Source: Terriglobia bacterium
Lineage (GTDB): Bacteria; Acidobacteriota; Terriglobia; Bryobacterales; Bryobacteraceae
Reading direction: 5' to 3'
DNA length: 46,973 nucleotides
Assembly (NCBI GenBank): GCA_020073615.1
Contig: JAIQEX010000040.1
Location: forward strand, 1-46,973
Below are positions 1 to 3,277 of this stretch, piece after piece; position 1 is the first letter of the stretch, and each line of letters starts with the position of its first letter. The notes under the pieces are model-generated. The model saw only the letters and a list, made by a program, of their open reading frames with translations, was not told where the DNA came from and searched no databases. Both the position numbers and the translations under genes were made by a program.

Positions 1-146
1 GCATAAACAATGCCCTCCTTGAGGCGAGTGATGGAACCGAGATGAGCGTCTGGTTCACTCACTACGTTGACAGGAGGGCGCGCCCCACCGCAATCCGGCA
101 ACAGACGCGGTTGGCGGTGTACGACACGATCATCGCGGCACTTTAA
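1..146 (+). CDS. C-terminal end of an unidentified protein (partial at left edge)
   Basis: An open frame enters from the left edge and ends with TAA at 144-146, giving 47 codons that finish in ...AVYDTIIAAL. About three quarters of its third codon positions are G or C, as expected for coding sequence here. The opposite strand is also open across part of this stretch but has lower GC3. I do not recognise the family. It converges on the SIR2-like fragment that ends at 171. The call rests only on frame openness and codon use. Confidence 0.35.
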   Translation, partial: INNALLEASDGTEMSVWFTHYVDRRARPTAIRQQTRLAVYDTIIAAL

Positions 147-170
147 CTCATCACTGATGCGTACAGCCGC

Positions 171-482
171 TCAGAGTAACTGCTGTTTTGGACAATAGTG
201 GTTCTCGATATCGAATTGCCGAAAAGCCTCCTTGCGCAGGATGGCAAGATCGGTGAGGCCAAGGACTTCTTCAAAAGTTGGGAAGTCATCATTAGTAAGG
301 TCTCTGCGTTTGACATCGATATTAAACATCTTCCGGAAGAATTCGGTCAGCTCCCGGTCCATGAGGGAGCGGCTGTTGCGAAAAGCGGGTGACGAAAAAT
401 ACTCCCAGAACAGTTCGCCTTGAAGGGGCGCGCCCTCGGCTTTCGATGCCCCCGCTCCGAGGAAGATTGCCGTATCGACCAT
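171..482 (-). CDS. SIR2-like NAD-binding domain protein, N-terminal fragment (truncated)
   Basis: This 103-residue frame opens with a hydrophobic strand and the Rossmann-type motif FLGAGASKAEGAPL (about residues 7-20), typical of the first nucleotide-binding loop of SIR2-like domains in bacterial defence proteins. Such proteins are normally several hundred residues long, so this is only the N-terminal quarter or less and lacks the catalytic His region. The ATG at 482 has a clear Shine-Dalgarno (AGGGG, 4 nt upstream) and lies 33 bp after the stop of the AlbA_2 gene, so the two form one transcription unit. The stop is TGA at 171-173. Either the gene is a truncated remnant, or the rest was lost by recombination with the unrelated convergent frame to the left. 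The family call is by motif only. Confidence 0.55.
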   Translation of the reverse strand: MVDTAIFLGAGASKAEGAPLQGELFWEYFSSPAFRNSRSLMDRELTEFFRKMFNIDVKRRDLTNDDFPTFEEVLGLTDLAILRKEAFRQFDIENHYCPKQQLL

Positions 483-515
483 TGTGCCCCTAAACGTCTG
501 AAACAGCCCAGCTAC

Positions 516-1865
516 TCAAAGCAGCGGTCGCAGATCTGCGATATTCGCGGCATATCCGAGATCTCGCAAGAACTGATTGGAAAGGATGGCGACAGGCTCA
601 GCATGGCTCCCGCACCGGGCGGCGTAGTTAAGATCGACCGCTGCATACGCCCTGACGCCTTGTTTTTTGGCCTTGGTCAAGACGGTCGAGGAAAGCGGCG
701 TCGCGCGTTTACGCGGACCGTTCTTTTGATAGAACGCCGAGGCATAGGCGGCCTCTAATCCGCTCGCCCTTTCCAGAAGCGGCAGGGACTCGACGCGCAA
801 TTCCGACAGGATTTGCGCTTCACCGGGATAGTTGAGGTAATTCCAGAATTGGTGCGCCACCTCAATCGTGCAGTCGAGGTTGGTCATCATGTCACAGAGG
901 CTCCAGACTTCGGCAGGGGAGCCGTGGTCCTGAACTTTACACCTAACCTGTGTCACAAAATGGAGTTCGCCGCTGGAGTCGATGGCCCATCGAATCTCAT
1001 AGTCGCGCCAGGCTTCGAGATAGGTGATCTGATACCAGTCGCGGAGGCGATACTCGGTGAACGATGCGCCCAGGCTCCGATCACGGTCATCTACGTTGGC
1101 GGCGAGCTCCGGATACGTTGAGCGGACGATTGAGAAGAGTTTCTGCTCAACGGTAAGATCGAGACGGACGGGCAACGATTCCTCTGGCGTGAGACGAATC
1201 AGCAAGAAGGTTTTCGAGCGCACGCGCGTCCCCTGAGCGGCGCCCTGCTGCGCCAGTGTGACGTAGAGGTTCTGAGTGCCGATGGTGGGTTTTGTTGCCG
1301 GTTCGGCGGGCGCTTGCCCAGGAACCCAACGTGTCGCAAGTAGCGCCTGCAATCGCGCAGCATCAGCCGGACGACTCTCATCCTCGTTACGGATATAGAC
1401 GGGCTGCTCTCCTTTCTTCGTGATCAGGTAGAGGCTGTTACCCTTACGGACACGTACGATGCAGAGATGGCGGCCCGAGCCGTCCTGGAAGGCAACATCG
1501 CGGATTTCGTATGGCGGCGTCGGCGAGATATTGGAGGCAATGCTGCTCGCGATACTGGTTTTGAGTTCCTGACGTTGTGCAGCAAGGCCGACAAGCTGGT
1601 CGGCTCGGCCGCCGGTCTCACTCACCCCGACAAGCAAGAGGCCGCCGAATGTGTTGGCAAAGGCCGCTACTGTCCTCAGCGCGGAGTCGCTCCATGTCGC
1701 CTTGAAATCCAGCAGGTAACCTTCCTGTGTCCGGTCCGTCGGAGATGCGGTCGCGCGAGTGAATGCTTCGACCGCGGCATAAAGCTCCGGATCGCTGATT
1801 GTAGCCAGGTCATCTTTATTGAGGTCAACGTCAACCGGCGTCATAGGGACCGATCCATCAGTCAC
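516..1865 (-). CDS. AlbA_2 (Schlafen-type, divergent AAA_4) putative DNA/RNA-binding protein
   Basis: The protein has 449 residues. Residues about 45-170 show the AlbA_2/Schlafen signature: an acidic-basic strand (YLLDFKATWS), then AFANTFGGLLLVGVSE, then a conserved strand ending in VYIRNEDESRPA. Proteins of this class bind nucleic acid or nucleotides and often occur in phage-defence and regulatory operons. The C-terminal 270 residues are unrecognised. The annotated start is GTG at 1865; an ATG at 1844 (MTPVDVDLNK) is an equally plausible start, and neither has a strong Shine-Dalgarno. The gene is followed 33 bp later by a SIR2-like fragment and preceded 155 bp upstream, on the same strand, by mqsA. 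This suggests a small defence-type operon, which is an inference from context. Confidence 0.7.
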   Translation of the reverse strand: MTDGSVPMTPVDVDLNKDDLATISDPELYAAVEAFTRATASPTDRTQEGYLLDFKATWSDSALRTVAAFANTFGGLLLVGVSETGGRADQLVGLAAQRQELKTSIASSIASNISPTPPYEIRDVAFQDGSGRHLCIVRVRKGNSLYLITKKGEQPVYIRNEDESRPADAARLQALLATRWVPGQAPAEPATKPTIGTQNLYVTLAQQGAAQGTRVRSKTFLLIRLTPEESLPVRLDLTVEQKLFSIVRSTYPELAANVDDRDRSLGASFTEYRLRDWYQITYLEAWRDYEIRWAIDSSGELHFVTQVRCKVQDHGSPAEVWSLCDMMTNLDCTIEVAHQFWNYLNYPGEAQILSELRVESLPLLERASGLEAAYASAFYQKNGPRKRATPLSSTVLTKAKKQGVRAYAAVDLNYAARCGSHAEPVAILSNQFLRDLGYAANIADLRPLL

Positions 1866-2020
1866 TCGTTAATGAAGGCCAACATTTTGATGCTAACATG
1901 TCTTCGCCCCCAAGAATGGTTATGGGACGGAAAATGGCGGTTTGGCGATACTCTACAGGTCGAAGCCTATCTTGCGCTTGGGGGGACAGCCGGGCGAGTA
2001 TACAGCAACCGGGTTGGTGG

Positions 2021-2425
2021 CTATCGCCCGGCCCGGACCTCGTTCAGCAGATTGGGGTGCCGGTCGAGCACCATGAGGAGTTTCACCAGCGCGAGAGGGG
2101 GCTTGGTCTTGCCGTTCTCGTAACGCGAAAACGCATTGGCGCCGCCGCCGAAGATCGCAGCCGCCTGCCGCTGGTCGAGCGCGAGCTTCTTGCGGACGCG
2201 CGCGATGAAGCCGGGATCGACGATGGAGGCGTTCACCTGCTTGTTGAACTCCAGCATCGCCGCGCTGACCCGTTTCGATTCCGCAGCGACGAGGACGCTC
2301 TCCCCGCAGGCCGGGCAGAACTCTCCGCGTACGGCCGGAATCGTGGTCGTTTCGCCTTTGTAGGTGTACGAGATATCGCGCGTGTCCCGCACCAGCTTCC
2401 GCTCGCCGCAGGATGAGTATTTCAT
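2021..2425 (-). CDS. mqsA: MqsA-family antitoxin / transcriptional repressor (orphan)
   Basis: The protein has 134 residues and is close to E. coli MqsA (131 residues) along its whole length. The N-terminal zinc domain keeps Cys6, Cys37 and Cys40, but the usual Cys3 is Tyr, so the four-Cys zinc site is incomplete. The C-terminal XRE-type HTH is well preserved (IFGGGANAFSRYENGK, then LDRHPNLLNEVR). MqsA normally neutralises the RNase MqsR and represses its own operon by binding AACCT-N3-AGGTT palindromes; a near match lies at 2606-2622. The start at 2425 follows AAAGGAG by 7 nt. Reading the frame further upstream to 2596 enters the remnant of mqsR, so the long fused frame is not one protein. 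The antitoxin probably persists as a stand-alone repressor. Confidence 0.88.
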   Translation of the reverse strand: MKYSSCGERKLVRDTRDISYTYKGETTTIPAVRGEFCPACGESVLVAAESKRVSAAMLEFNKQVNASIVDPGFIARVRKKLALDQRQAAAIFGGGANAFSRYENGKTKPPLALVKLLMVLDRHPNLLNEVRAGR

Positions 2426-2451
2426 GGCATTGCTCCTTTCTTCATAGTTCC

Positions 2452-2596
2452 TTGAAAGACGCCAATGATCCCCTCGAAACCGAACCCCAAAGCCGCGCCT
2501 CCGGCGAGCAAGCGCCGAAACGGTGGTGCGGACCTTGCCCGCCGCAAGCATAGTCTTGACTACCGCCAGCTTACAGTGCGGCGTCCGTTTCTCCAC
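2452..2596 (-). pseudogene. mqsR: Remnant of mqsR (RelE-fold mRNA interferase toxin)
   Basis: From the GTG at 2596 the sequence reads MEKRTPH then VRTTVSALA, matching the first 30 residues of MqsR. After that the frame is broken by one base. In the neighbouring frame the similarity resumes as LAGGAALGFGFEGIIGVF, matching the next 17 or so residues, and then stops abruptly. MqsR is about 98 residues, so the C-terminal half, which carries most of the RNase active site, is gone. The remnant ends about 27 bp before the mqsA start, so the ribosome-binding site of mqsA survives. The toxin cannot be functional in this state. Confidence 0.85.
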
Positions 2597-2605
2597 GAGA
2601 CTACG

Positions 2606-2622
2606 TTAACCTACTTGGTTAA
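2606..2622. promoter_or_regulatory. Probable MqsA operator palindrome
   Basis: TTAACCTACTTGGTTAA is an inverted repeat with TTAACC and GGTTAA arms and a 5-nt spacer, 10 bp upstream of the mqsR remnant start. It matches the known E. coli MqsA site (AACCT-N3-AGGTT) at all but one arm position. It therefore probably still serves autoregulation by the orphan MqsA, and may also affect the divergent higBA promoter about 40 bp away. Confidence 0.7.
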
Positions 2623-2646
2623 GTTGCAAAGAAAACTCCTGCGTGC

Positions 2647-2666
2647 TATATCCAATCGGATATAAT
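2647..2666 (+). promoter_or_regulatory. higBA promoter -10 box overlapping a perfect palindrome
   Basis: TATATCC-AATC-GGATATA (2647-2664) is a perfect inverted repeat with 7-nt arms. Its right arm overlaps a consensus -10 hexamer TATAAT at 2661-2666. The higB ATG begins at 2673, only 6 nt after the hexamer, so a transcript from this box would have almost no leader. No convincing -35 is seen at the usual 17-nt distance. The layout fits an autoregulated toxin-antitoxin promoter in which the antitoxin covers the -10 region. Confidence 0.6.
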
Positions 2667-2672
2667 TAGACC

Positions 2673-2999
2673 ATGCGGCCAGTGCGTTTCCTCGGCGACT
2701 CGCTCAAGTGCTTGCGCGACTTCCCTGAGGATCCACGGCACGACGCGGGCTACCAACTGGATAAGGTGCAGCGCGGAGAGCAGCCTGACGATTTCAAGCC
2801 TATGGCCATCATCGGCAAGGGAGTCGAAGAGATTCGCGTGACGGATGACAGTGGCGCCTACCGCGTGATCTACGTGGCCCGGCGCGCGGAGGCCGTGTAC
2901 GTGCTGCACGCTTTCCAGAAGAAGACGCAAGCGACTTCGCAGCGTGATATCGACACCGCCAAGAGGCGATTTGCACAATTGTCGAGAGGTGGAAAATGA
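2673..2999 (+). CDS. higB: HigB-like / Gp49-family type II toxin (RelE/ParE superfamily)
   Basis: The protein has 108 residues and follows the phage-Gp49/HigB pattern: an N-terminal FLGDSLKCLRDFPEDPR helix, then AGYQLDKVQRGEQPDDFKPM, a central strand pair (VEEIRVTDDSGAYRVIYVA) and the closing segment VYVLHAFQKKTQ. Members of this RelE/ParE superfamily cleave mRNA on the ribosome. The toxin gene comes first and overlaps the antitoxin gene by 4 bp (ATGA at 2996-2999), which is the usual higBA order. There is no upstream Shine-Dalgarno and the -10 box sits right before the ATG, so leaderless translation is possible. The pair appears intact. The name is by family resemblance. Confidence 0.8.
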   Translation: MRPVRFLGDSLKCLRDFPEDPRHDAGYQLDKVQRGEQPDDFKPMAIIGKGVEEIRVTDDSGAYRVIYVARRAEAVYVLHAFQKKTQATSQRDIDTAKRRFAQLSRGGK

Positions 3000-3277
3000 G
3001 CAAACCCGAGAGCTACGCCAGCGTTTGGGACGCCATCGCGGACACGCCAGGGCAGGCCGCCAACCTGCGGGCGCGGGCCGAACTGATGCAGCAGATCGCG
3101 GCCTTCGTGAAGCGGCAGGACTGGACGCAGGTCGAGGCGGCGAGCCACTGCGGTGTGACGCAGCCACGGATTAACGATCTGCTCCGTGGCCGGGTCTCGC
3201 GCTTCTCGCTGGACGCGCTGGTGAATATCTCCACGGCGTTGGGCTGCCGCGTGCGGGTCGAAATCGAGGCTGCCTGA
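2996..3277 (+). CDS. higA: HigA-like XRE-family antitoxin (HTH_37 type)
   Basis: The protein has 93 residues. A helix-turn-helix spans about residues 30-80, with recognition segment DWTQVEAASHCGVTQPRIND and the following LLRGRVSRFSLDALVNISTA. The short C-terminal strand (GCRVRVEIEA) is typical of antitoxins paired with Gp49-type toxins. It starts inside the last codons of higB through an ATGA overlap, implying translational coupling. It should bind and neutralise the toxin and repress the operon, probably at the palindrome at 2647-2664. Nothing looks damaged. Confidence 0.82.
   Translation: MSKPESYASVWDAIADTPGQAANLRARAELMQQIAAFVKRQDWTQVEAASHCGVTQPRINDLLRGRVSRFSLDALVNISTALGCRVRVEIEAA

Follow-up and report, generated by a model that had tools for sequence, protein, structure and literature searches.

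The window analysed here, 46,973 nucleotides in length, is contig C211 of the 6.96-Mb genome (252 contigs) of a Terriglobia soil bacterium. The features at its left end are the following.

1-200, reverse strand: end of an IS4-type insertion sequence (IS) that interrupts the SIR2 gene, with its terminal repeat CACTATTGTCCAAAACAG at 200-183, recognised from further copies in the genome.
171-200, reverse strand: IS-encoded tail HYCPKQQLL and stop codon, which closes the truncated SIR2 frame and lies inside the repeated IS end.
201-482, reverse strand: SIR2-like gene, native codons 1-94, beginning MVDTAIFLGAGASKAEGAPL, assigned from a SIR2 profile, tblastn and the matching gene start in locus L040.
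483-515, reverse strand: 33-bp gap between the AlbA_2 and SIR2 genes, with a purine-rich AGGGG ahead of the SIR2 ATG.
516-1865, reverse strand: Schlafen-like AlbA_2 protein, 449 codons from a GTG start at 1865, assigned from PF04326 and homologues.
1617-1724, reverse strand: AlbA_2 stretch that includes the acidic residues E48, D53 and E83 and runs from the first of them to the last, placed by alignment with SLFN13.
2021 to about 2425 (frame 2021-2596), reverse strand: neighbouring MqsA antitoxin (PF15731, E 4.1e-59).
2501-2584, reverse strand: probable MqsR toxin remnant, in frame before mqsA (PF15723 positions 1-28, E 0.092, below the cut-off).
2673-2999, forward strand: neighbouring Gp49 toxin (PF05973, E 5.6e-26).
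2996-3277, forward strand: neighbouring HTH_37 antitoxin (PF13744, E 4.9e-26).

The sequence-only reading had placed an AlbA_2 gene here and, 33 bp on along the same strand, a short SIR2-like frame, and PF04326 and a SIR2 profile both agree with that description. Pfam SLFN_AlbA_2 (PF04326) matches residues 48-167 of the 449-codon protein with E 6.3e-16 and 59.4 bits (cut-off 25.3), and the match spans positions 1-117 of the 118 in the profile, which places the protein in the family. A single AlbA_2 stretch is present, and no other Pfam domain was found at E values up to 1. As judged from these matches, the protein is an N-terminal AlbA_2 nuclease-type domain joined to a conserved C-terminal region with no assigned fold; a structure model built from an input of three sequences had a mean pLDDT of 41, too poor for use. 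The starts of homologues make ATG at 1844, giving 442 residues, a more likely initiation codon than the GTG at 1865. The sequence TTTAGGGGCACA precedes the ATG of the short SIR2 frame (171-482, reverse strand). The G+C content of the pair is 0.53-0.58, compared with 0.65 for window positions 3457-46973. When the neighbouring toxin-antitoxin genes are included (window 1-3277) the range is 0.53-0.61 against the same 0.65 for the rest of the contig (3457-46973), a difference of the kind expected for acquired DNA.

The short frame had been read as the N-terminal GAGxS segment of a SIR2-like domain, and this identification holds. Against a SIR2 profile of seven homologues, built with the window excluded and with two of the seven originally found using the fragment, it scores 36.1 bits, and the best of 2000 shuffled sequences scores 7.8. 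In the Curtobacterium member of this profile the annotated start falls after the GAGxS motif. A tblastn search of plasmids aligned the fragment with a Vibrio 'SIR2 family protein' (31% over 98% of the fragment, E 1e-4), and a search of the phylum aligned its residues 2-87 with a 390-codon frame in genome G008 (32%, E 3.9e-4). In both of these full-length homologues PF13289 (SIR2_2) matches towards the C-terminus, and the SIR2 relatives are stand-alone SIR2_2-type proteins of about 360-400 residues. On this evidence, the short frame is truly the N-terminal part of a SIR2 protein. The window fragment lacks the C-terminal SIR2_2 part, where the catalytic region lies, and alone it had no match in Pfam or PADLOC and no meaningful match in NCBIfam or the PDB. 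When the profile of SIR2 homologues was compared with the PDB it matched SIR2-like proteins, the best being 8w9l (381 aa, E 5e-11), together with KomC, a named NADase, and, weakly, ThsA. Defence-type SIR2-like proteins and KomC rank above deacetylases in this comparison, and the matches lie mostly in the part that is missing from the window fragment.

The reason for the missing part is an insertion. Window positions 1-200 were found at five further places in the same genome: on contigs C187, C25 and C249 at 100%, on C194 at 100% over 173 bases up to the contig edge, and on C113 at 98%. Contig C236 bears a weaker, partial copy. The copy of the IS on C25 is complete (L042:5643-7249), has imperfect terminal repeats and encodes a 409-aa DDE_Tnp_1/DUF4372 transposase. 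Because window 1-200 is a repeated IS end, only 482-201 is native SIR2 sequence; we infer that the native part ends at 201 after 94 codons and that the last nine residues of the frame are encoded by the IS. Furthermore, since the contig starts inside the IS, what had been described as a loss of the SIR2 C-terminus is an interruption combined with an assembly edge. The gene is indeed damaged, but not by simple loss of its C-terminus.

The lost C-terminal half of SIR2 was not found in the assembly. A full-length SIR2 homologue searched against the genome matched only the window fragment and no C-terminal half, and the two PF13289 matches in the genome, which fall on other contigs within frames 869 and 977 codons long, do not represent the lost half. 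A genome search for right ends of the IS gave three matches, on C25 and C241 plus a 75% match on C236; the flank on C241 reads permease-like by eye, and the right ends of most IS copies are missing from the assembly. Two more AlbA_2 genes and two genes for large SIR2_2 proteins lie elsewhere in the same genome (G000; contigs C102, C160, C159 and C172), no two of them on the same contig. With SIR2 cut by the IS after codon 94, the pair in the window cannot work as such. The AlbA_2 frame is open, and its product may still be active alone.

Two toxin-antitoxin loci had been proposed beside the pair. The one at 2673-3277, which we take to be of HigBA type, is intact, but the other consists of MqsA plus an apparent toxin remnant, so that at the mqsA locus the antitoxin was probably kept and the toxin lost. 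In PADLOC neither gene of the pair had a match, and the toxin-antitoxin neighbours alone had weak ones.

The AlbA_2 domain of the window resembles that of the Schlafen RNases. Residues E48, D53 and E83 align with rat SLFN13 E205, E210 and D248 (5yd0_A; a numbering offset of 13 is inferred), and SLFN13 activity is described as depending on these three residues (PMC5862951). The triad positions are acidic in seven of seven family members, always with D at 53 and with E at 83, or D in L039. A 12-sequence AlbA_2 profile compared with the PDB matched SLFN14 (E 1.3e-12), 2kyy (2.7e-12), a bacterial RecG-related protein, and SLFN13 (5yd0, 3.1e-11), and also CbCash, SLFN11 and SLFN5. The acidic positions are not specific to this family, being kept by most other AlbA_2 domains compared, and SLFN5 is reported to bind tRNA without cutting it (PMC11221667). 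Thus the acidic site does not of itself prove RNase activity, and the identity of the protein as a Schlafen-type RNase is plausible from its alignments. Compared with the Schlafen RNases SLFN11/13/14, the same E, E, D site is aligned in SLFN14 and SLFN13, whereas position 53 of the window family is D where those RNases have E, and position 83 is E or D where they have D. The C-terminal region of the window protein is unrelated to theirs, and it has one AlbA_2 stretch, in contrast to SLFN13, which is described as pseudo-dimeric. PMC12839542 catalogues Schlafen RNases of another architecture beside BREX and states, citing a preprint, that the Schlafens of bacteria have an anti-phage action.

Six relatives align with the AlbA_2 protein over its whole length or most of it: L039 (62%), L040 (67%), L041 (in two pieces), L068 (49%), L069 (37%) and L070 (35%). 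Loci L071 and L072 hold distant AlbA_2 relatives. Among the relatives found, L040 is the closest to the 449-residue protein; it comes from a Terriglobia MAG, and 12 bp past its AlbA_2 stop codon lie an ATG and 23 SIR2 codons, in the same order and on the same strand as in the window. The two gene starts, MVNTAIFLGAGASKAEGDPLQGQ in L040 and MVDTAIFLGAGASKAEGAPLQGE in the window, are identical at 20 of 23 residues, and tblastn recovers the L040 start with E 8e-10 in the downstream set and E 1.3e-8 in eight whole relative loci. The remnant is missed in an ORF list with an 80-aa floor; it was a six-frame profile scan that brought it out, and with it the reading that the SIR2 neighbour is unique to the window was ruled out. 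Similarly, the idea that homologues of the AlbA_2 protein never adjoin SIR2-like genes, which would have told against the pair, is refuted by this locus.

In L040 the SIR2 frame runs into an inverted repeat with 26-nt arms (L040:7414-7501), exactly where the frame is lost, and a 97-residue frame follows the remnant. This palindrome is dispersed, with 22 matches in genome G738 at about 12 places, counting itself. The breaks in the window and in L040 therefore fall at different codons and beside different elements; SIR2 is broken in both lineages and AlbA_2 is open in both. Among the 23 shared SIR2 codons, 15 of the 18 nucleotide differences are in third positions, and pS is 0.84 and pN 0.07 for this short sample; for AlbA_2 in the same two genomes the values are 0.71 and 0.22. 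The third-position bias indicates that each lineage probably had a working SIR2 gene before its own break occurred, and over these 23 codons selection probably acted on the gene in both during most of their separate history. Its loss by different events in the two lineages, with the partner retained, suggests that the SIR2 half is costly. AlbA_2-SIR2 looks, from this comparison, like a real, rare two-gene unit that has died at least twice.

We give about even chances to the reading that the window holds the remains of a rare Acidobacteriota AlbA_2-SIR2 operon that was most likely an abortive-infection module. In such a module the Schlafen-like protein would sense infection or cut tRNA or other RNA, the SIR2 protein would deplete NAD on activation by cleaving it, the two proteins would act together, and phage defence would be the outcome. 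A defence role is plausible from the protein families and from some of the neighbourhoods. This reading is strongest in having a second copy with a different break and in the third-position pattern; it is weakest in that no intact AlbA_2-SIR2 pair was found in the genomes and loci searched and that five relatives lack SIR2.

The extent of the pairing bears directly on the best-surviving alternative, namely that the AlbA_2 protein is a stand-alone Schlafen-like effector, behind which a separate SIR2 gene came to lie in one branch and was then lost. We consider this a real possibility, clearly less probable than the operon. SIR2 stands behind AlbA_2 in two of the seven family members (the window and L040), and profile scans of both strands of the fetched loci, made with frames of at least 60 residues and repeated with frames of at least 20, found none in L039, L041, L068-L070, L071 or L072. 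A tblastn search of the whole relative loci outside L040 gave a best E of 0.93, and of 0.92 in the downstream DNA only; the downstream DNA examined amounted to 840 bp in L040, 687 bp in L071 and 2936 bp in L072. Thus the two-gene system proposed earlier does recur, in L040, but it is not general, as five of the six relatives have no SIR2 in the fetched loci.

Approached from the other side, the SIR2 relatives have no adjoining AlbA_2. Seven SIR2 loci (G008, Vibrio, three Rhizobium plasmids, Cohnella and Curtobacterium) had no AlbA_2 match with a profile that, as a control, recovers all eight relatives; six of the seven plasmid SIR2 records were looked at, and H9, an apparent near copy of H8, was left out. 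In a 396-genome sample of the phylum, AlbA_2 lay within 10 kb of SIR2_2 at none of the 153 places examined, the nearest being 11.4 kb away. These places comprise 150 among the matches listed and three in the window's own genome, out of 289 (summed matches), and the count used all 136 SIR2_2 (PF13289) places, a profile that is blind to the window fragment itself. As a claim about a general system, then, the earlier proposal fails. Further copies were absent from same-genus genomes (one other genome, and two others of the genus of L040). Viral contigs held no relative of the AlbA_2 protein, of the SIR2 fragment or its conserved start, or of a 492-residue protein encoded in L039; phage records held no relative of SIR2 or AlbA_2; and plasmids held none of the window AlbA_2 protein, the L039 protein or the IS.

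The genes downstream of AlbA_2 also vary between members, as the stand-alone reading would have it. In L039 the next gene encodes the 492-residue protein (L039:7477-8955), which has no family match; a deoxyribosyltransferase/TIR-type fold, considered for it by eye, has no library support and is not claimed. An HNH-like frame follows in L070 (by eye, with no Pfam match) and a methyltransferase fragment in L069; L041 has an M15 peptidase in this place, and L068 a frame that looks glycosyltransferase-like by eye. Against the stand-alone reading, two members at 67% identity share gene order and close spacing with SIR2 as well as the third-position bias in its start.

The wider surroundings of the relatives are mixed. 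Defence or mobile genes lie near three of the six (L039, L069 and L070), and L040, L041 and L068 are in ordinary chromosomal settings as judged by eye. The L070 member lies beside Hachiman hamA/hamB (L070:8822-12624; HamA E 2.4e-87), which is just upstream; the L039 member has in its vicinity an integrase, a gene resembling bilC and a weak bilD-like match; and an integrase is also found near the L069 member. In the L070 island, a repeated similar fragment flanks part of the island on both sides, by eye. A distant AlbA_2 gene on the Paenibacillus polymyxa plasmid pAP1 (L092) has a SLATT gene and a nucleotidyltransferase in its vicinity, a setting reminiscent of CBASS-type systems.

An arrangement akin to a toxin-antitoxin pair, with SIR2 as an NADase toxin and AlbA_2 as its regulator or antidote, would explain why one partner outlives the other: SIR2 is broken in both lineages and AlbA_2 open in both, and the neighbouring mqsR is likewise remnant-like beside an intact mqsA. 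However, five members persist with no detected SIR2, which is unexpected of a pure antidote, and the kept acidic site suggests an enzyme, so that we regard this arrangement as quite improbable. We hold it very unlikely that AlbA_2 acts as a regulator that binds DNA or RNA, with SIR2 as its deacetylase, in the style of archaeal Alba and Sir2 and with no role in defence. Such an analogy with archaeal Alba and Sir2 has been proposed for SAMD9 (PMC5445408), and the AlbA_2 profile does match the RecG-related 2kyy; nevertheless, all seven members retain the nuclease-type acidic positions, and the SIR2 profile places defence-type SIR2-like proteins and KomC above deacetylases. Finally, chance adjacency or an assembly artefact, which the position of the fragment at a contig edge might suggest, is hardly credible given an L040 pair that lies in a separate MAG and breaks at another codon, and a fragment score far above that of shuffled sequences.

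We return to the favoured reading, a rare AlbA_2-SIR2 operon, and to how it compares with known systems. Two-gene SIR2 defence modules are known, SIR2-HerA and similar systems among them, and, as in these, the SIR2 relatives found here are stand-alone proteins of similar length. Unlike in SIR2-HerA and Argonaute-SIR2, the partner in the window is AlbA_2 and not HerA or Argonaute/APAZ, and no HerA, Argonaute or TIR gene was present among the genes named by the Pfam and PADLOC scans. Fusions of SIR2_1 and Schlafen (orthogroup og_40), with APAZ, have been described in Argonaute operons (PMC6299218). The og_40 proteins combine SIR2 and Schlafen as here, but as a fusion, whereas the window genes are separate. 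In the excerpts of open-licence PMC papers that were consulted, no description of a two-gene AlbA_2-SIR2 operon was found; that is, the combination of SIR2 and Schlafen defence parts as an operon was not found described there.

The nearest parallel in domain order is the SAMD9 family, which in the account of PMC5445408 carries AlbA_2, then a SIR2-like domain, then a STAND-like NTPase in one chain. That 2017 study considered AlbA_2 and SIR2 in one cytoplasmic protein to have no precedent, and SAMD9L is reported to need its Schlafen-like site for HIV-1 restriction (PMC11221667). SAMD9 and SAMD9L, found in animals and some bacteria, share the order AlbA_2 then SIR2-like with the window, but each is one large protein with a STAND-like NTPase, TPR and OB-fold, in contrast to the two small genes here. 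Of the full SAMD9 architecture, only the AlbA_2-then-SIR2 order is matched. By analogy, one could picture the pair as a split, minimal bacterial counterpart of the SAMD9/SAMD9L core: a double-effector suicide module, tRNA cutter plus NAD burner, whose cost would lead to repeated loss of SIR2 and leave the Schlafen-like half behind. We offer this picture as speculative and rather unlikely. The antiviral proteins SAMD9 and SAMD9L of animals are built around AlbA_2 followed by SIR2, and with a bacterial version in two genes one could take the parts separately and test how an RNase-type and a SIR2 domain act jointly.
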